A stretch of 12,930 bases of DNA from Candidatus Adiutrix sp. (GTDB lineage: Bacteria; Desulfobacterota; Desulfarculia; Adiutricales; Adiutricaceae). The notes under the pieces are model-generated. The model made no database searches and was not told the DNA's origin. It was given only the letters and a program-made list of their open reading frames with translations. Positions 4,444 through 12,930 of the stretch are shown in pieces (positions within the stretch are counted from its first letter, which is position 1; the number at the start of each line of letters is the position of its first letter). The stretch covers positions 1-12,930 of the forward strand of contig JAISRV010000121.1 of the NCBI GenBank assembly GCA_031273445.1, read 5' to 3'. The translations under genes were made by a program, and so were the position numbers.

Positions 4444-7400
4444 ATGAGCCGGAAAAAGAAGTTAACGACGCTGGCCGTTATCCTGGCGCTGATTTTTGGC
4501 GCTGTTCTATTTTTCACCGAATCTTCACTGAAAGACTACGAAGATAGAGCGCGGACCGAAGAGGCCCAACCCGGGCAGACGGCCGTCGACCAGATGGAAA
4601 TAGTTTTTTCGTCTGACGGCGTCATGCGGCATAATTCGCCCGAGCACGGTCCGCTGGTTTTACCCGGCTGGCTGGCTTTTCATGCCCTGTATATGCTGAA
4701 TAAAGGGCGGATGAGCGCGGAAGAGGAAAAGCAGTATTACGGATGCCTGAACTGGCTGAAGGATAACCTGCGGGAAAAAAAGCCCGGGCTCTGGGTCTGG
4801 GATTATCCCCTTGACAACACCTACAATGACATAACCATCAAAGCCCCCTGGGACAGCGCTTTTGCCCAAGGGGTGGGCGTCAGCCTCTTTTTGAAAGCCT
4901 GGGAAAAAGAACAGGACGACATCTACCTGGAAGCGGCGGAAAAAGCGGCCTCCGGCCTGTTTATCGACCTTAAGGAAGGCGGCCTGGCCGACATTAAGGG
5001 CGACGAGGTCTGGTTTGAAGAAGTGCCCTGGCCTCTTGATAATCCCACTCATATTTTAAACGCCCATATGAGCTCATTAATCGCCCTGAAAGACCTGCAT
5101 GAAGCGACGGGAAAACAGCCATACGGCGACCTGTTTGACCGTGGCCTTGCGACTTTAAAAAAACGGTTGCCTCTTTTCGATGCCGGCTACGCCCTGCGTT
5201 ATGACCTGAACCCCCAAAAAAAAGAAATTTTATTCAAGATTGCCAACCCCTATAATTTTGCGACCTTCCCCCTGGCCATGGAAAAAATTTCCATTAAAGA
5301 CCCGTTAAGCGGCCGCCAATTGACCATAGAGGCCGGCTCCGACCAAGCTTTCGAGGGCGATATGCGTCTGTCCGGCCTCCACTGGAGTCAGCCGGAAGAA
5401 GTCGCCGGGCGGACGGCGCGGCGTCTTGTTTCCGTGGAGGCGGGGGAGACCAGCCACTCCTATTTCGTTTTGAAGCTGCCGTCGGAATGGACCGACAACC
5501 TGCGCCGTGAAGAGTTTGAAATATATGTCACTTATTATGATGAAGCCCCGGCCAATTTGAATGTTCAAAAGAGGGCCATGGCCCCCGGGCCGGAATATCG
5601 CGATTTGAAATCCGGCAACCTGTTGCTGACCGGTTCCGGGCAGTGGCGGGAATGGCTGATCCCCCTGGCCCCCTCGGATCTGGGCTGGTGGGTCGGCGAA
5701 TCATACAATGCCTTTAACGGCTACTGGCTCCGGCGACTCGGCCAATACGACCCGGATTTGCTGGAATGGGCTCTGATCGCCGATGGGTATCACCGGGCTG
5801 GCGTCGAGACGGCCGACCCGGAAGTAGTTGAAGCCAAAATAGACCCGGCGAAGGCAACGGAAGGCGCATCCTATGGCCTGGAAACGGTCGAGCCGCTACG
5901 GCTTGCGGCTGATTTCATAGAAATAGAGACAAACAACTACTATGACATGCTGTCCTCTCTGACGGCTTTGGGGAATAATCAGTATTTGTATTGCGATTAC
6001 ATCAATATCTACTTTTTGTCCCTTGGCTCCGGGAGTAATTATACGATAACGCAAGTTGAACCTCTCGGTTTAAATTCAGATTTCGTGCCGACCGGTCTCT
6101 ATTATCACCAAGGCACGCTTTATATCGCCAATTACACGGGCAACAATATTTTAGCCGGCCAATTAAGCGCTGATAATTCCCGTTTGGAAATAACGCGCTC
6201 CATCACTCACCCAGCCTTGATCTCGCCGGAAAACATTTTTGTGGATGATGAAATAATCGTCACCGCCAATTACGACGGCAACAACGTCACCTGTTTCGAC
6301 CACGAAGGCCGGCTTTTGTGGGAAGTCAAAGTTCCCAACGCCCATGGCATCGACGGCAATAAAGACTTCTTGACGGTCACCGGACTGGGCGAACGCAAAA
6401 TTTACAAGCTGAGCCGTTCGGGCGAAGTCTTGCGCACAACCGGCCAATTGGGCTGGGAACTGAATGAATACGCCTGGCCGACCGACATCGACATTCTGCC
6501 GGCCAATGAGATCCTGGTGACTGATGCCCATACCGGCCGAATAACCAAGCTTGATTACGACCTAAAGCCCATAAAGGCCTGGGGGATAAACGGCTCAGCC
6601 AGGGCTGATTTTAATTTCCCCTATGCCCTATATCCACGAGAACAAGGATTGATTATCTGTGATACCTTCAAAGGCCGTTTTTTATTTTTAAATCAAGACT
6701 TTCAAATAGAAAAAATTATTTACCTGAACGGAAGAAACCCTGAGGCCGGCGATAAAAAATTATGGGGCATGAAAACTGACGCCTATGCCTATCCCAGCCT
6801 TGACGAGGAGCCGTTGAACATATTGCTGCAAGACTTTTTTCCGCCAAATGATTCTTTGTCATATATGAGCTCATATAATGGGTTCCGAATGCTTATTGGC
6901 GAAGAAATAAAAAAATATATTATCATGAATAGCAATAATCTCACCAAACCTGATTTTTATGGGTTTTTTTGGTACGTCACCATGGCGGAAAAACTGCCGC
7001 ATGATTCAGGGCGTTATTATGTGATATTTTCCCCACAAAATTATCACCCATTGTTTTTCGACAGCGAAACTAAGGCTTTCTTTTTGACGAAGCTGGACGC
7101 AATCCCGTACTCCACCTGGTCGGCGGCCGAGTCTGAATATATTGACGAAATGTTTCAAAAAATTAAACCTCACTTCATGACTTTGGAAAAAGCCATGAAA
7201 AGCGACGACGATCTGTTGAAGTTATGGGATCAATATTTAGGAAAAGACTCCAACAACCTTGTGCCAGGCTTGAAGGAGCTGCTGAACTACAGTGAAGCCG
7301 GCAAAAAAATAAGCGAAAAAATACAAAACGGTCGCTTGACTTCGGCTGATCTGGCTGAATTTAAACAAGCCATATCGGAAGACCTGACCATAAATCTGTT

Positions 7401-10400
7401 GGAATGCCTGGCGGTTTCGTATCTCGCGCAGAATAGCGCTCAGGACAAAACCGAAGATGTGGAAGATATTGCCCTTTCCGCCGCCGTAGCCGCCAGTTCC
7501 CCGGTCTACCCGGACTTCCCGGTGGAAAACGCCCTGGACGGCGACCCGAATGACGACTATGCGGCCATGCTGGAAGGCGAGACGCCGCAGGGCTTTATTC
7601 TTGAATTGGGCCGCCGGGCCCTGATTCACGAAATCAGCCTGGTTTTTGAAAACGAGGTCAACTTCCCCTTCAATTTTACTGTGGACAGTGTGGCCTACTC
7701 TAAAGACGTCGCCAGTGCCCCTAAAATATCTTTAATCGCCGAGGTTAAAAATCACCAGGGGAAAATATGGCGGCAAAAGTTTGATCCGCCGGTCTCGGCC
7801 GCCTTTGTCCGTTTCATGGCCGGGGCCTTTTCCGGCCAGCCCCGGCTGCTCCTGCGTCAGGTGGAGATAATGGCCGAGCCGCCCAGCCCCCTGCAAAGCC
7901 TGCTTTTGGCCCCCGGCGCCCAGGAAGTGGCGGCGGCGCATGACGACCCGGCCAATCCTTTGAGAATTTTCAGCTTTTACCCCATAACCAAGGGCATGAA
8001 CGACGTGGCGCGTTTGATCATAGGCGATGAAAATCTGTCGCCCCATCAAAAAATAGTCAAATTCATGCATGAATTTGACGATCATGAGTATTATGCCATG
8101 ACGAAAACAGCCACCGGGGTCGAGACCATGCTGACCGGCATTGGCGGTTGCGGCACTTGGACTAACGCGCTCATGGAATTTGCCTGGACGCAGGGCTGGG
8201 AAGGCCGCATTGTATATTTGCATAATTTCCCGGTCAACGCGGGGCACACTTTGGCGGAAATAAAAATAAACGGCCAGTGGCGGCTCTATGACCCGACTTA
8301 CGGCCTGTATTATACGACTGAGCCGGAAAACAGCCTCGACCCTCAGGTGCTGGGTTATGAGGAGCTGCGCCGGGGCGGGGCCTTGGCCCCCGGCGTGGCG
8401 CGGGTGGCGGGAAACGAAAAGCGCCTGGCCGCCGGCGGCGCTTTCGCCGACCCCCTGATATTCACCCAGGCCCAACCGGCCGGCCCCATCGGCCAGGATA
8501 AGCCCATGGTCTTTCCCTTGACCCTGGCGCTGAACTCCGTTTTGGAGTCGGAAAAATTCGATACCTCAACCCAGGGCGCGCCCTATATAGGCGCCGCTTA
8601 CGTCAACAATCACCAAAAATGGACCTTGACGGGCCTGAGGCCGGGGCAAAACTACGCCTTCATTATAACCCCGGCCTATATTGACGATCAGGAAAAGTCC
8701 GCCGGGGCAAAAGGTTCGTTTATTTTACAGGCCCGCTTTGAAAACGCAGAGTCTAGCGAAACCCTGGAGCGCACTTTTCAGGCCGACGACCTGGGGCCCT
8801 GGCGCCTGGAATTCACCGCCGCCGGCGACGAGGCCGCCCTCTATTTCAGTCACCCCTATCTGGGGCCGAAAAGCCGCTATTTAGGCGTCAAAAGCTATGA
8901 ATTGAAAGAAAGCGCCTCCAGCGGCGACAGAGACGCGGGTGAATCCAGGGCGCCGGCGCCTGAAGCCCCGGAGGCTGAACGAAAGCCGCCCAAGGCCGAT
9001 GCTCTTGAGGACCTCGCCCTTTCCGCCGCCGTAGCCGCCAGTTCCCCGGTCTACCCGGACTTCCCGGTGGAAAACGCCTTGGACGGCGACCCGAATGACG
9101 ACTATGCGGCCATGCTGGAAGGCGAAGCGCCGCAGGGTTTTATTCTTGAATTGGGCCGCCGGGCCCTGATTCATGAAATCAGCCTGGTTTTTGAAAACGA
9201 GGTCAACTACCCTTCTGATTTTACGCTTGACAGCGTGGGCTATTCACAAGACATCGCCAAAGCCGTCAGGCTATCATTGCTCGCTGATGTTAAAAGCCAT
9301 GCAGGGAAAATATGGCGGCAAAAGTTTGATCCGCCGGTCTCGGCCGCCTTTGTCCGTTTCATGGCCGGGGCCTTTTCCGGCCAGCCCCGGCTGCTCCTGC
9401 GTCAGGTAGAGATAATGGCCGGGCCGCCCAGCCCCCTGCAAAGCCTGCTTCTGGCCCCTGGCGCCCAGGAGGTGGCGGCGGCGCCTGACGACCCGGCCAA
9501 TCCTTTGAAAATTTTCAGCTTTTACCCCATAACCAAGGGCATGAACGACGTGGCGCGTTTGATCATAGGCGATGAAAATCTGTCGCCGCATCAAAAAATC
9601 GTCAAATTCATGCATGAATTTGACGATCATGAGTATTATGCTCTGACTAAAACCGTGACCGGCGCCGAGACAATGCTGACCGGCATTGGCGGTTGCGGCA
9701 GTTGGACCGCCGCGCTTATGGAATTTGCCTGGACGCAGGGGTTGGAAGGCCGCATCGTAAATTTGCATAATTTTCCGGTCAACGCTGGGCACACCTTGGC
9801 GGAAATAAAGGTAAACGGGCGCTGGCAGCTCTATGACCCGACTTACGGTCTGTATTATACGGCTGAGCCGGAAAACAGCCTTGACCCCCAGGTGTTGGGT
9901 TATGAGGAGCTGCGCCGGGGCGGGGCCTTGGCGCCCGGCGTGGCGCGGGTGGCGGGAAACGAAAAGCGCCTGGCCGCCGGCGGCGCTTTCGCTGACCCCC
10001 TGATATTCACCCAGGCCCAACCGGCCGGCCCCATCGGCCAGGATAAGCCCATGGTCTTTCCCTTGACCCTGGCGCTGAATTCTGTTTTGGAATCGGAAAA
10101 ATTCGATACTTCAACCCAGGGCGCGCCCTATATAGGCGCCGCTTACGTCAACAATCATCAAAAGTGGACCTTGACGGGCCTGAGGCCGGGGCAAAACTAC
10201 GCCTTCACTATAACCCCGGCTCATATTGTCGATCAGGAAAAATCAGCCGGGGAAAAAGGCTCGTTTATTTTACAAGCCCGCTTTGAAAACGCCGAGTCGA
10301 GCGAAACCCTGGAGCGCGCCTTTCAGGCCGACGACCTGGGGCCCTGGCGCCTGGAATTCACCGCCGCCGGCGACGAGGCCGCCCTCTATTTCAGTCACCC

Positions 10401-10497
10401 CTATCTGGGGCCGAAAAACCGCTATTTAAGCGTCAAGAGCTATGAACTGAAAGAAAGCGCCTCCGGCGGCGACCCGGCGACTGACGGCAAATCATGA
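4444..10497 (+). CDS. 2017-residue membrane-anchored multidomain protein: C5-epimerase-like, beta-propeller, 2 x (discoidin + transglutaminase-like + beta-sandwich)
   Basis: The start MSRKKKLTTLAVILALIFG is a signal anchor or signal peptide without a clear cleavage site. Start: ATG 4444, GAGG (4431-4434) 9 nt upstream. Residues about 60-250 match the D-glucuronyl C5-epimerase C-terminal family: LPGWLAFHALY, APWDSAFAQGVGVSLFLKAW, EVWFEEVPWPLDNPTHILNA. Residues about 250-450 continue with GEWREWL-like and LGWWVGESYNAFNGYWL patterns. About 510-765 is an NHL-type six-bladed propeller (LYIANYTGNNIL, AWPTDIDILPANEILVTDAH). About 770-1000 is an unrecognised helical region. Then come two modules, 1007-1495 and 1522-2010: a discoidin (F5/8C-like) domain, a transglutaminase-like domain and a C-terminal beta-sandwich. 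Both transglutaminase triads are complete: C1236/H1268/D1283 and C1751/H1783/D1798. Known transglutaminase-like enzymes form or cut amide bonds. The substrate here is unknown; surface glycan or protein is an inference. I recognise no named family with this whole architecture. Confidence 0.88.
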   Translation: MSRKKKLTTLAVILALIFGAVLFFTESSLKDYEDRARTEEAQPGQTAVDQMEIVFSSDGVMRHNSPEHGPLVLPGWLAFHALYMLNKGRMSAEEEKQYYGCLNWLKDNLREKKPGLWVWDYPLDNTYNDITIKAPWDSAFAQGVGVSLFLKAWEKEQDDIYLEAAEKAASGLFIDLKEGGLADIKGDEVWFEEVPWPLDNPTHILNAHMSSLIALKDLHEATGKQPYGDLFDRGLATLKKRLPLFDAGYALRYDLNPQKKEILFKIANPYNFATFPLAMEKISIKDPLSGRQLTIEAGSDQAFEGDMRLSGLHWSQPEEVAGRTARRLVSVEAGETSHSYFVLKLPSEWTDNLRREEFEIYVTYYDEAPANLNVQKRAMAPGPEYRDLKSGNLLLTGSGQWREWLIPLAPSDLGWWVGESYNAFNGYWLRRLGQYDPDLLEWALIADGYHRAGVETADPEVVEAKIDPAKATEGASYGLETVEPLRLAADFIEIETNNYYDMLSSLTALGNNQYLYCDYINIYFLSLGSGSNYTITQVEPLGLNSDFVPTGLYYHQGTLYIANYTGNNILAGQLSADNSRLEITRSITHPALISPENIFVDDEIIVTANYDGNNVTCFDHEGRLLWEVKVPNAHGIDGNKDFLTVTGLGERKIYKLSRSGEVLRTTGQLGWELNEYAWPTDIDILPANEILVTDAHTGRITKLDYDLKPIKAWGINGSARADFNFPYALYPREQGLIICDTFKGRFLFLNQDFQIEKIIYLNGRNPEAGDKKLWGMKTDAYAYPSLDEEPLNILLQDFFPPNDSLSYMSSYNGFRMLIGEEIKKYIIMNSNNLTKPDFYGFFWYVTMAEKLPHDSGRYYVIFSPQNYHPLFFDSETKAFFLTKLDAIPYSTWSAAESEYIDEMFQKIKPHFMTLEKAMKSDDDLLKLWDQYLGKDSNNLVPGLKELLNYSEAGKKISEKIQNGRLTSADLAEFKQAISEDLTINLLECLAVSYLAQNSAQDKTEDVEDIALSAAVAASSPVYPDFPVENALDGDPNDDYAAMLEGETPQGFILELGRRALIHEISLVFENEVNFPFNFTVDSVAYSKDVASAPKISLIAEVKNHQGKIWRQKFDPPVSAAFVRFMAGAFSGQPRLLLRQVEIMAEPPSPLQSLLLAPGAQEVAAAHDDPANPLRIFSFYPITKGMNDVARLIIGDENLSPHQKIVKFMHEFDDHEYYAMTKTATGVETMLTGIGGCGTWTNALMEFAWTQGWEGRIVYLHNFPVNAGHTLAEIKINGQWRLYDPTYGLYYTTEPENSLDPQVLGYEELRRGGALAPGVARVAGNEKRLAAGGAFADPLIFTQAQPAGPIGQDKPMVFPLTLALNSVLESEKFDTSTQGAPYIGAAYVNNHQKWTLTGLRPGQNYAFIITPAYIDDQEKSAGAKGSFILQARFENAESSETLERTFQADDLGPWRLEFTAAGDEAALYFSHPYLGPKSRYLGVKSYELKESASSGDRDAGESRAPAPEAPEAERKPPKADALEDLALSAAVAASSPVYPDFPVENALDGDPNDDYAAMLEGEAPQGFILELGRRALIHEISLVFENEVNYPSDFTLDSVGYSQDIAKAVRLSLLADVKSHAGKIWRQKFDPPVSAAFVRFMAGAFSGQPRLLLRQVEIMAGPPSPLQSLLLAPGAQEVAAAPDDPANPLKIFSFYPITKGMNDVARLIIGDENLSPHQKIVKFMHEFDDHEYYALTKTVTGAETMLTGIGGCGSWTAALMEFAWTQGLEGRIVNLHNFPVNAGHTLAEIKVNGRWQLYDPTYGLYYTAEPENSLDPQVLGYEELRRGGALAPGVARVAGNEKRLAAGGAFADPLIFTQAQPAGPIGQDKPMVFPLTLALNSVLESEKFDTSTQGAPYIGAAYVNNHQKWTLTGLRPGQNYAFTITPAHIVDQEKSAGEKGSFILQARFENAESSETLERAFQADDLGPWRLEFTAAGDEAALYFSHPYLGPKNRYLSVKSYELKESASGGDPATDGKS
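7462..8928 (+). repeat. Module 1 of an intragenic duplication
   Basis: First copy of a 1467-bp unit whose period to the second copy is 1545 bp, with no net indel along its length. It encodes the discoidin domain, the transglutaminase-like domain and the beta-sandwich of residues 1007-1495. By hand count about 39 of 489 residues differ from copy 2. Fifteen of them fall in one 32-residue patch, 7663-7758, and none in about 105 residues from EPENSLDPQ to GQNYAF. Confidence 0.95.
9007..10473 (+). repeat. Module 2 of an intragenic duplication
   Basis: Second copy, residues 1522-2010. The two copies are joined by a 78-bp linker (8929-9006) encoding a Pro-, Ala- and Glu-rich stretch (SRAPAPEAPEAERKPPKADA) that looks flexible. 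The variable patch corresponds to 9208-9303. The protein ends eight codons after the unit, at TGA 10495-10497. Confidence 0.95.
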
Positions 10498-10513: not shown

Positions 10514-10648
10514 ATGTTCGTTTCTTTGACACAACCGCACAAATGCCTGATGATAGGCGGGGTTGAAGCGCGGTTGCGGCAACTTGGCGAACAGGCCGCC
10601 CTGCCCAAGGCTCATCCCCATAAATTCCGGCCTACCCTTCACGTTTGA
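10514..10648 (+). pseudogene. Fragment of a phage-type tyrosine integrase
   Basis: A 44-codon open frame, MFVSLTQPHKCLMIGGVEAR followed by LRQLGEQAALPKAHPHKFRP and TLHV, then TGA. The stretch KAHPHKFRPT resembles box II of tyrosine recombinases (usually HPHKFRRT, with the HxxR pair), and VEARLRQLGEQA resembles the helix just before it. The N-terminal part and the nucleophile Tyr are absent, so it cannot be active. It sits 17 bp after the big gene and runs directly into the DUF1016 fragment in another frame, which marks a recombination scar. The match is short, so the family call is moderate. Confidence 0.6.
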
Positions 10649-10976
10649 AAAGATTATTGAAATTATTGAGAGCGCGTGCGAAAGGGCTTTCCGTGCGGTG
10701 AACCGTGAACTCATCTCAACGTACTGGGAAATTGGGCATTACATGAGCGAAAATGTATCTTCCAACAACTGGGGGCAGTCTGTCGTTCTAGAATTTTCAC
10801 GGTTTATCCAGTTGCGCTTTGTCGGCCTTAAAGGATTCTCGCCGCAAAACATATGGCGGATGAAGCAGTTTTACGCAACTTATGCCGGCAACGAAAAACT
10901 CTCGCCGCTGGTGAGAGAAATCAGCTGGGTGAACAACGTGTTGATATGGCGCAAGATACGGAAAATGTCGTCTTAA
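10563..10976 (+). pseudogene. Truncated DUF1016 (YhcG-type) nuclease-family gene
   Basis: The frame starting at TTG 10563 encodes 137 residues; homology to DUF1016 begins at about 10644 with FEKIIEIIESACERAFRAVN. It continues with ELISTYWEIGHYMSE, NNWGQSVVLEFSRF, GLKGFSPQNIWRMKQFY and KLSPLVREISWVNNVLIW. That is the N-terminal half of the family. The family's usual length is about 340 residues, with a PDDEXK-like nuclease half at the C-terminus, which is missing. The natural start is also gone: upstream codons come from the integrase fragment. The frame stops at 10974-10976 after unrelated residues RKIRKMSS. A remnant of the end may survive at 10991-11038. YhcG-type proteins are linked to DNA metabolism and defence, but this copy is almost certainly dead. 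Confidence 0.75.
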
Positions 10977-11124: not shown

Positions 11125-11367
11125 ATGGCCCAGGTAAATATCAGAATAGACGACAGACTCAAGGAAGAGGGCGAATTGCTGTTCAGGCGGCTCGGTTTAT
11201 CATTTTCATCGGCGGTCAGCGTTTTCGTAAGTCAGGCGGTGCGCGAAAAAGCGATACCATTCAAAATTTCCGAAAACCGAGCAAAAGATATTACGCTTGC
11301 AAGCGAAAAAGCCCTCGCCAAAGACTGGCTTTTGCCAGAAGAGGACGCCGAATGGCGGGATTTGTAA
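11125..11367 (+). CDS. RelB/DinJ-family antitoxin
   Basis: An 80-residue protein. MAQVNIRIDDRLKEEGELLF, then RRLGLSFSSAVSVFVSQAV and REKAIPFKI, is the standard ribbon-helix-helix N-terminus of RelB/DinJ antitoxins. The C-terminal part (LASEKALAKDWLLPEEDAEW) is the toxin-binding tail. It is expected to bind and neutralise the toxin encoded next and, as a dimer, to bind its own promoter. GGGAG (11114-11118) sits 6 nt before the ATG. The gene overlaps the toxin gene by 16 bp, the usual translational coupling. The unusual point is the partner: it belongs to the MazF/PemK fold and not RelE/YafQ. Confidence 0.92.
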   Translation: MAQVNIRIDDRLKEEGELLFRRLGLSFSSAVSVFVSQAVREKAIPFKISENRAKDITLASEKALAKDWLLPEEDAEWRDL

Positions 11368-11624
11368 AAGGCGACGTTGTGGTCGTGCCGTTTCCATTTT
11401 CGGACTTAAGTTCCTCTAAACGCCGCCCCGCGCTCGTTTTGGCCAAAGCAAACGCAAGCGATCTGATTTTGTCGCAAATAACAAGCAAAAGCGTCGGCGA
11501 TGAATATGCGGTTGAGCTTATCACGTCTGATTTTAGTTCGGGTGGGCTGAACGCGACAAGCAACGTCCGTCCAAACAAATTAAGGTTCATTCGGCGGCGT
11601 CTATTCAGTTGGGCACAATTTTGA
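11352..11624 (+). CDS. MazF/PemK-family toxin, probably frameshifted near its C-terminus
   Basis: A 90-residue frame beginning MAGFVKGDVVVVPFPFSDLS, then KRRPALVLAKA, DLILSQITSK and NATSNVRPNKLRF. These are the family's GDVV, FPFSDL, RRPALVL and ITS blocks. MazF toxins are ribonucleases that cut mRNA at short motifs. After NKLR the frame gives RRRLFSWAQF and stops. The -1 frame from 11585 instead gives VHSAASIQLGTILTQFLKAA, which looks like the family's usual last part (here LGTIL for the IG-L segment) and stays open to 11734. A one-base deletion near 11585 would explain this, so the toxin may be inactive. GAGGA (11341-11345), inside the antitoxin gene, is the RBS. Confidence 0.82.
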   Translation: MAGFVKGDVVVVPFPFSDLSSSKRRPALVLAKANASDLILSQITSKSVGDEYAVELITSDFSSGGLNATSNVRPNKLRFIRRRLFSWAQF

Positions 11625-11892: not shown

Positions 11893-11938
11893 CGCTTCAC
11901 TAATTGAGGCGAATAGAGGATGTAAATGCTTCAGTATT
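11871..11938 (+). repeat. 34-bp tandem repeat across promoter and start codon of the Fic gene
   Basis: Two abutting 34-bp copies, 11871-11904 and 11905-11938, agree at about 28 of 34 bases, with the first 15 identical (TGAGGCGAATAGAGG). Copy 1 fills the promoter spacer and contains the -10. Copy 2 holds the ribosome-binding site (GAGGA 11916-11920) and the ATG. This placement suggests an operator that controls both transcription and translation start, most simply by autoregulation. Confidence 0.8.
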
Positions 11939-12930
11939 TTTGGCAGTCAGAACAATGGCCTCATTACCGCTGGCGGGCTGATGACTTATTGGGGCCGCTG
12001 GCGGAGTTGCGCAAAGCGCAGGGCCGCGTTCTGGGGCTGGCGGCCAACCTGGGCTTTGATGAAGGCTTGCGGGCCTCAGCCCTGGCTTTAGAGGAAGACG
12101 CCATCCAGACGGCGGCCATCGAGGGCGAGCGGCTGGACCGGGAAAAAGTACGCTCTTCCCTTGCCCTGCGCCTGGGCTTGCCGCAAGCGACGCCGCCGCC
12201 CGCCGACCGGGCGGTGGACGGCTTGGTGGAAGCGCTTTTGGACGCCGCGCGCCAATATGACCAACCACTGGATGAAAAACGCCTTTGCGGCTGGCACGCC
12301 GCCTTGTTCCCCACCGGCCGCTCTGGCCTTGATGACGTCACCGTGGGTGCTTGGCGCACGGCCGCCATGCGGGTGGTTTCCGGGCCTTTCGGAAAGCAAA
12401 AAGTGCATTTTGAGGCCCCGCCGCCGGAACGCCTGCCCGATGAGATGAAATCATATTTCGACTGGTGGCAGGAAAGCCGGGGGGCTGTGGACGGCTTGAT
12501 TCGGGCCGCTTTGGCCCAGCTTTATTTCGTCGCCATCCACCCCTTTGACGACGGCAATGGCCGTCTGGCCCGCGCCCTGTCCGATTTGGCCCTGGCGCAG
12601 GATGAAGGCACGGGCCAGCGTTTTTACAGCCTGTCGGCCCAGATCATGAAAGAGCGCCAGGAGTATTACAACATTCTGGAGCGGACGCAAAAAAACGACG
12701 GCGATTGCACCCAGTGGCTTTTATGGTTTTTCGGTTGCCTGGCGCGAGCCATAGAGGGGACGGAACAGCTTCTGGCGAACGTGCTGCTGAAGGCCAGGTT
12801 CCGGCAAAAACACGCCGCGGCCGAACTCAGCGGACGCCAGAAAAAAGTCTTAAATACTCTGCTCGACGCAGGCCCAGGCGGTTTTGAAGGTGGGCTTACC
12901 ACCCGCAAATACATGAGCTTGACTAAAACC
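11926..12930 (+). CDS. Fic-domain protein with DUF4172-like N-terminus (runs off the right edge)
   Basis: An open frame of 335 residues without a stop before the window ends. The start is ATG 11926, with GAGGA (11916-11920) 5 nt upstream. It begins MLQYFWQSEQWPHYRWRADD, the DUF4172-type opening. At 62-67 TAAIEG fits the inhibitory motif (S/T)xxxE(G/N), so this is a class II Fic protein with the self-inhibiting helix before the Fic core. The catalytic loop HPFDDGNGRLARAL starts at H205. Both the catalytic His and the phosphate-binding Gly-Asn-Gly-Arg are intact. After SAQIMKERQEYYNILERTQK and a helical part, residues from about 303 (ELSGRQKKVLNTLLDAGPGG) begin a winged-helix DNA-binding domain, cut by the edge. 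Fic enzymes usually transfer AMP to target proteins; the target here is unknown. The winged helix is a candidate to bind the repeat at its own promoter. Confidence 0.93.
   Translation, partial: MLQYFWQSEQWPHYRWRADDLLGPLAELRKAQGRVLGLAANLGFDEGLRASALALEEDAIQTAAIEGERLDREKVRSSLALRLGLPQATPPPADRAVDGLVEALLDAARQYDQPLDEKRLCGWHAALFPTGRSGLDDVTVGAWRTAAMRVVSGPFGKQKVHFEAPPPERLPDEMKSYFDWWQESRGAVDGLIRAALAQLYFVAIHPFDDGNGRLARALSDLALAQDEGTGQRFYSLSAQIMKERQEYYNILERTQKNDGDCTQWLLWFFGCLARAIEGTEQLLANVLLKARFRQKHAAAELSGRQKKVLNTLLDAGPGGFEGGLTTRKYMSLTKT

Follow-up and report, generated by a model that had tools for sequence, protein, structure and literature searches.

A fused epimerase-like, propeller and transglutaminase-like protein suggests an undescribed bacterial way to edit surface polysaccharide

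The 12,930-nucleotide stretch of Candidatus Adiutrix sp. DNA analyzed here (hereafter the window) encodes a 2017-residue protein comprising an N-terminal anchor, a predicted glucuronyl C5-epimerase domain, an NHL propeller, a helical region, and two copies of a discoidin-transglutaminase-beta-sandwich unit, an architecture proposed in an initial annotation and confirmed by domain searches and structure models (Table 1). Together with its fused relatives, this protein suggests an undescribed bacterial way to edit, and perhaps cross-link, surface polysaccharide. We assign a probability of about 0.5 to the reading of the protein as a finishing enzyme, anchored in the membrane and facing the periplasm, that acts on a uronate-containing polysaccharide of the Wzm/Wzt-exported type by the full mechanism described below; a glycan-finishing role in the broader sense is very probable. 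The initial annotation had pictured an outer-surface glycan machine. Its glycan-directed, anchored role stands, supported more by gene neighborhood than by the protein alone; the outer-surface location is one option, as a protein with one anchor, at its N-terminus, could equally well sit in the inner membrane and face the periplasm.

The neighborhood evidence comes from relatives of the protein. A genome scan with a profile of the transglutaminase-like (TG) domain gave 11 confirmed loci, among which L008-L014 were retained, and one more (L038, genome G470) came from searching 398 genomes of the L010 genus for the epimerase. The resulting eight reference epimerase-transglutaminase (epi-TG) loci, seven chosen by TG and one by epimerase, represent several phyla. 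Four of the 11 loci (L015-L018) were excluded from the family, with partial matches at 21-32% identity; the genomes of L015 and L016 contain no match to PF06662, the epimerase family. The relatives share polysaccharide-export clusters with glycosyltransferases and an amidotransferase of the AsnB type. AsnB is encoded in all eight reference loci and Wzm/Wzt-type genes in seven, the exception (L012) being a 9.6-kb contig. The initial annotation had identified the neighbor of the window protein as a methyltransferase-glycosyltransferase (MT-GT), and this gene matches the MT-GT of the reference clusters, relatives of which are found in 8/8 loci as well as in the window (the L009 match is weaker). 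All PF06662 matches in the seven genomes of L008-L014 lie inside the respective epi-TG locus. Among the 398 genomes, PF06662 is found in nine genomes at 10 loci, two of which are the epi-TG loci; the other eight (L033-L037, L039-L041) gave no TG-unit match, and one of them carries an AsnB-like fragment at the locus edge. The epimerase loci of G1217 and G977 gave no TG or AsnB match.

The controls were 40 loci, drawn at approximately every second row from the 83 non-case Wzt_C rows (85 rows in total) of 119 genomes of the genus of L010, with a radius of about 10 kb around Wzt_C. Wzt was recovered in 40 and Wzm in 39 of these loci, whereas AsnB, epimerase, TG, propeller, and MT-GT were each found in 0/40 at 1e-5; at a loosened E of 1, only short partial AsnB matches appeared (4/40). 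The difference in AsnB between epi-TG and control Wzt_C loci (8/8 vs. 0/40; Fisher 2.7e-9) is to be read with many of the controls being 418-423-aa Wzt_C types that are apparently orthologous, and hence not independent; for Pseudomonas only, it is 3/3 vs. 0/40 (8e-5). The count of eight includes L009, whose cluster AsnB is situated some 14 kb away from Wzt, the AsnB that falls inside the control radius being another copy at the edge of the locus, and L012, which has no Wzt on its contig and is not Wzt-anchored like the controls.

A protein search that scored 7996 candidates, with the domain content of homologs taken from precomputed labels, showed among the matches listed at least 14 homologs besides the window protein (1258-1441 aa) that combine PF06662 with PF01841 in a single chain. 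The nine of these 14 that were aligned have the order epimerase, epimerase, discoidin, TG, beta-sandwich, with P0004 lacking most of the discoidin domain, and domain searches found the same order in L008, L010, L011, and L012. In the window protein, the propeller and helical tail stand in place of the second epimerase, and the TG unit is present twice.

The mixing of modules across relatives is the strongest indication that they share a function. Epimerase and propeller form one chain in P0036, tail and discoidin are fused in P0046 (by Pfam label) and apparently in P0021 (by eye), and P0043 spans discoidin and TG. The propeller is a separate gene in P0016, L009, and L013; the gene order is epimerase, TG, TG, propeller, TG, epimerase in L009 and propeller, epimerase-epimerase-discoidin, TG in L013. 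The latter is a locus of Hyphomicrobium zavarzinii (L013/L051), with TG, epimerase, and asnB as individual genes. P0016, a stand-alone propeller-tail protein, shares 78% identity over 99% of the window propeller-tail region, its N-terminus is nearly identical to the anchor of the window protein, and the beta/helical tail is retained in P0016, P0017, and P0021.

The Selenomonadaceae locus L009 (7763-19667), in which separate genes encode AsnB, one NHL propeller, two epimerases, and three TG-like proteins, is a natural un-fused counterpart of the window protein, and a Planctomycetota protein (L014, 9626-12202) has the reversed order, with TG before the epimerase.

The AsnB partner is the main clue to the possible TG substrate. 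A uronamide chemically resembles the side chain of glutamine, from which transglutaminases usually take the acyl group. Because of this likeness, and of a precedent for AsnB-type glucuronamide formation in Porphyromonas gingivalis, we propose that the TG domains act on uronamides. According to the available excerpt of the P. gingivalis study, an AsnB-type enzyme, the WbpS amidotransferase, makes glucuronamide on the linking sugar, and a cysteine transpeptidase, PorU, is implicated in the attachment of proteins to this glycan (PMC7468200). Both this system and the epi-TG clusters pair an AsnB-type enzyme with a cysteine enzyme; they differ in that PorU belongs to the gingipain family and is not TG-like, and in that, within the same excerpt, the bond to protein is formed by a sugar that carries an amino acid, not by the uronamide, and no C5-epimerase is mentioned.

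In the proposed mechanism, AsnB would convert some uronate carboxylates to carboxamides in the cytoplasm, and the chain would be capped and then exported. The epimerase domain would invert C5 of the remaining uronates, and the CBM32-like discoidin domains and the NHL propeller would hold the chain. The active cysteine of the TG would take a uronamide, or an amide-linked amino acid, as the acyl donor, releasing ammonia, and would pass the acyl group to an amine, by which chains may be cross-linked or tied to protein. We consider the odds that the TG acts on amide groups of the glycan to be roughly even; that the balance falls on cross-linking or anchoring and not on hydrolysis is tentative and somewhat doubtful. 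Rather unlikely in its full extent is a multi-phylum system of glycan cross-linking, in which AsnB would make uronamides, C5-epimerase would act after export, and the TG would use the uronamides as acyl donors, cross-linking the polysaccharide or attaching it to protein.

Both TG copies have a complete Cys-His-Asp triad, as the initial annotation had stated, and the three residues are conserved in 13/13 TG rows with letters at those positions. In the structure model of the TG unit, Cys starts helix 232-245, His lies in strand 263-271, and Asp ends strand 274-279, an arrangement that follows the helix/strand/strand core topology of the TG-like superfamily. The window copies differ from that superfamily in being missed by its Pfam model and in adjoining epimerase and CBM32 domains: PF01841 gave no match in the window protein at E<=0.1, and relatives fall on either side of its cut-off of 23 bits (L008 27.9, L009 24.6, L011 34.4, and L013 42.3 above; P0043 20.7 and two L009 proteins 19.5 and 17.2 below). 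The discoidin/CBM32 domain was found both as a Pfam match and as a fold; it dominates the ranking in a fold search with the discoidin-containing TG unit, where TG2 (8tr9) and a putative protease (3kd4) appear at low TM-scores. Within their own genome, discoidin-TG units are confined to the 2017-aa protein. The two units are identical at 450/492 residues and differ at 116/1476 bases, with 25, 24, and 67 differences at codon positions 1, 2, and 3, respectively (nonsynonymous divergence, dN, 0.043; synonymous divergence, dS, 0.229; dN/dS ~0.19). An assembly artifact behind the tandem was judged unlikely, given the number of differing bases, mostly at third codon positions.

The PF06662 match of the window protein scores 108.8 bits (Pfam cut-off 23.3), and a GlcE-type fold was found for this domain. 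It is placed by sequence in the PF06662 fold family as a predicted, not proven, glucuronyl C5-epimerase, and it is probably active as such. PMC13308652 names E499, Y500, N510, Y560, and Y578 as the key GlcE residues. In a phmmer alignment, with human numbering fitted by hand to the printed chain, E499, N510, and Y560 correspond to E193, N206, and Y253, whose equivalents are conserved in 14/14 aligned epimerase rows. The likeness to human and zebrafish GlcE (PDB 6i01, 4pxq) comprises the fold and these three residues; the window protein differs in its fusion to propeller, CBM32, and TG domains and, through its relatives, in a bacterial export-cluster context. The C5-epimerase of Bermanella marisrubri (Raedts et al. 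2013), likewise GlcE-like, is presented as the only one identified in bacteria in the accessible portion of PMC13308652, which mentions no TG or propeller for it; the comparison is by description only. Our search of open-licence PMC literature found no account of an epimerase combined with a transglutaminase, including with AsnB and an exporter.

The propeller region was recovered as a six-bladed NHL fold, with a Pfam NHL score of 17.8 (cut-off 20). Pfam searches proposed in the initial annotation supported the epimerase and discoidin domains and fell short for NHL and PF01841; structure prediction gave GlcE, CBM32, and NHL folds and the TG core topology. The predicted TM-score (pTM) of the N-terminal model is 0.55, so the relative placement of the N-terminal domains is not fixed. 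Structures matched by the propeller fold include a lactonase propeller. The propeller family (window 5863-7458, + strand; P0016-P0041) has nearly invariant motifs DAHxG, AHG, and ANYxGxN, which could be a candidate active site.

Several observations weigh against the finishing-enzyme reading. To our knowledge, the glycan structure of no epi-TG cluster has been described. TIGR01536, the model for asparagine synthase, is passed by the AsnB proteins of L008, L009, L011, L014, and L038 and by one from the genome of the window; their matches to TIGR03108, which is linked to polysaccharides, stay under its cut-off, so the cluster AsnBs may make only asparagine. In the TG profile search against solved structures, the sole significant TG match, and thus the nearest solved relative, is 3isr (2.9e-5), annotated as a putative cysteine protease; peptide N-glycanase and CPR-C4 (E 0.4) were not significant. 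Relatives of the TG core include many proteases and amidases. Amide hydrolysis is the main rival to TG action on uronamides: the TG-like domains would be amidases or proteases, trimming the glycan of uronamides or of amino acids held by an amide bond, or processing a surface protein, with the epimerase and binding domains only bringing them to the glycan. We regard this alternative as less likely than not. The amide-forming AsnB in 8/8 clusters fits amide use, though it is compatible with amide removal, and no conserved protein substrate was noticed in the clusters, without a systematic search for one.

The epimerase domain raises a second difficulty for the finishing-enzyme reading. The position of GlcE Y500 is V194 in the window protein and V, I, or F in 14/14 aligned epimerase rows, and Y270, the uncertain candidate equivalent of Y578, lies outside the HMMER alignment and is conserved in 7/14. 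The substrate or step of the domain may therefore differ from that of GlcE. These replacements speak for a domain that is no longer a GlcA C5-epimerase, serving as a binding module or as an enzyme whose substrate chemistry is different, be it directed at another uronate or similar to that of a lyase, which, beside the three conserved key residues, seems fairly improbable.

Apart from MT-GT, the window itself provides no cluster partners. No AsnB, Wzm, or Wzt match was found on its 12.9-kb contig, Wzt_C gave 0 matches in its genome (72% complete), and the AsnB relatives of this genome lie on other contigs (C351, C290, C217; best 38-39% over ~385 residues). The protein might thus be an orphan or decaying cluster fragment beside one MT-GT, adjoining a region of toxin-antitoxin and Fic genes. 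Downstream lie a DUF1016_N domain in a short frame, the RelB/PemK pair, and Fic, and in G022, a relative from the same family, the TG pieces contain an in-frame stop. The open 2017-aa frame, both intact triads, and the dN/dS between the units make decay very unlikely, and at 72% completeness, missing partner genes are weak evidence, a split cluster being indistinguishable from a lost one. The G022 pieces (L044 6884-7593, - strand), 50% and 37% identical to the window and situated at a contig end, represent either a decaying copy or a sequence error. At the left edge of the window contig, an H+-pyrophosphatase is encoded on the strand opposite to MT-GT.

Table 1. Features encoded in the window.
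Feature	Position	Strand	Remarks
Methyltransferase-glycosyltransferase (MT-GT), 1063 aa	1130..4321	+	37% and 35% identity to two parts of L008 MT-GT
Fused protein, 2017 aa	4444..10497	+	Anchor, C5-epimerase, NHL propeller and helical tail, two discoidin-transglutaminase-beta units
N-terminal hydrophobic anchor, aa 7-25	4462..4518	+	Preceded by MSRKKK
Predicted C5-epimerase domain, then beta-sandwich, aa 31-475	4534..5868	+	
Six-bladed NHL-type beta-propeller, ~aa 483-753	5890..6702	+	
Beta/helical tail accompanying propeller, ~aa 754-1005	6703..7458	+	Structure model; kept in propeller relatives
Discoidin/CBM32-like domain, copy 1	7459..7893	+	
Transglutaminase-like core, copy 1	7936..8343	+	C1236, H1268, D1283
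C-terminal beta-sandwich, copy 1	8446..8928	+	
Discoidin/CBM32-like domain, copy 2	9004..9438	+	
Transglutaminase-like core, copy 2	9481..9888	+	C1751, H1783, D1798
C-terminal beta-sandwich, copy 2	9991..10479	+	
DUF1016 N-terminal domain, short 137-aa frame	10563-10976	+	Apparently without C-terminal part
RelB-type antitoxin	11125-11367	+	Above Pfam cut-off
PemK/MazF-type toxin	11352-11624	+	Above Pfam cut-off; overlaps RelB-type antitoxin gene
DUF4172-Fic protein	11926-12930	+	Runs off contig end

The system is rare and patchy. TG matches occur in 2/395 genomes of the window's own phylum (the window's included, the other weak), in 3/60 genomes of relatives (the window's included, the other two partial), and in 3/392 genomes of the phylum of G444, two of which (G442 and G444) were already known. 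The only new match in the latter phylum, G1236, which covers model positions 70-146 of 320, has no epimerase or AsnB on its 10.8-kb contig and adds to the points against the finishing-enzyme reading: the prior prediction that both genes would stand beside new TG matches in that phylum failed in the single case testing it, unless G1236 is an unrelated TG. The weak match in G429 likewise has neither gene on its 7.5-kb contig. An rpoB comparison, in which several further pairs did not align properly, gave 67% between the host of the window and a genome of its class and 60% to the Desulfovibrionaceae genome of L008. Horizontal movement of the system is likely; the L011 protein was unmatched in 72,556 plasmid records.

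The family links GlcE-like epimerases to TG-like enzymes, together with an amidotransferase in export clusters, in five bacterial groups. If the TG works on the glycan, it would represent a chemistry not seen before in bacterial coats and might help in making cross-linked or iduronic acid-containing polysaccharides, and if the uronamide reading is true, the family would include a transglutaminase with a sugar substrate.

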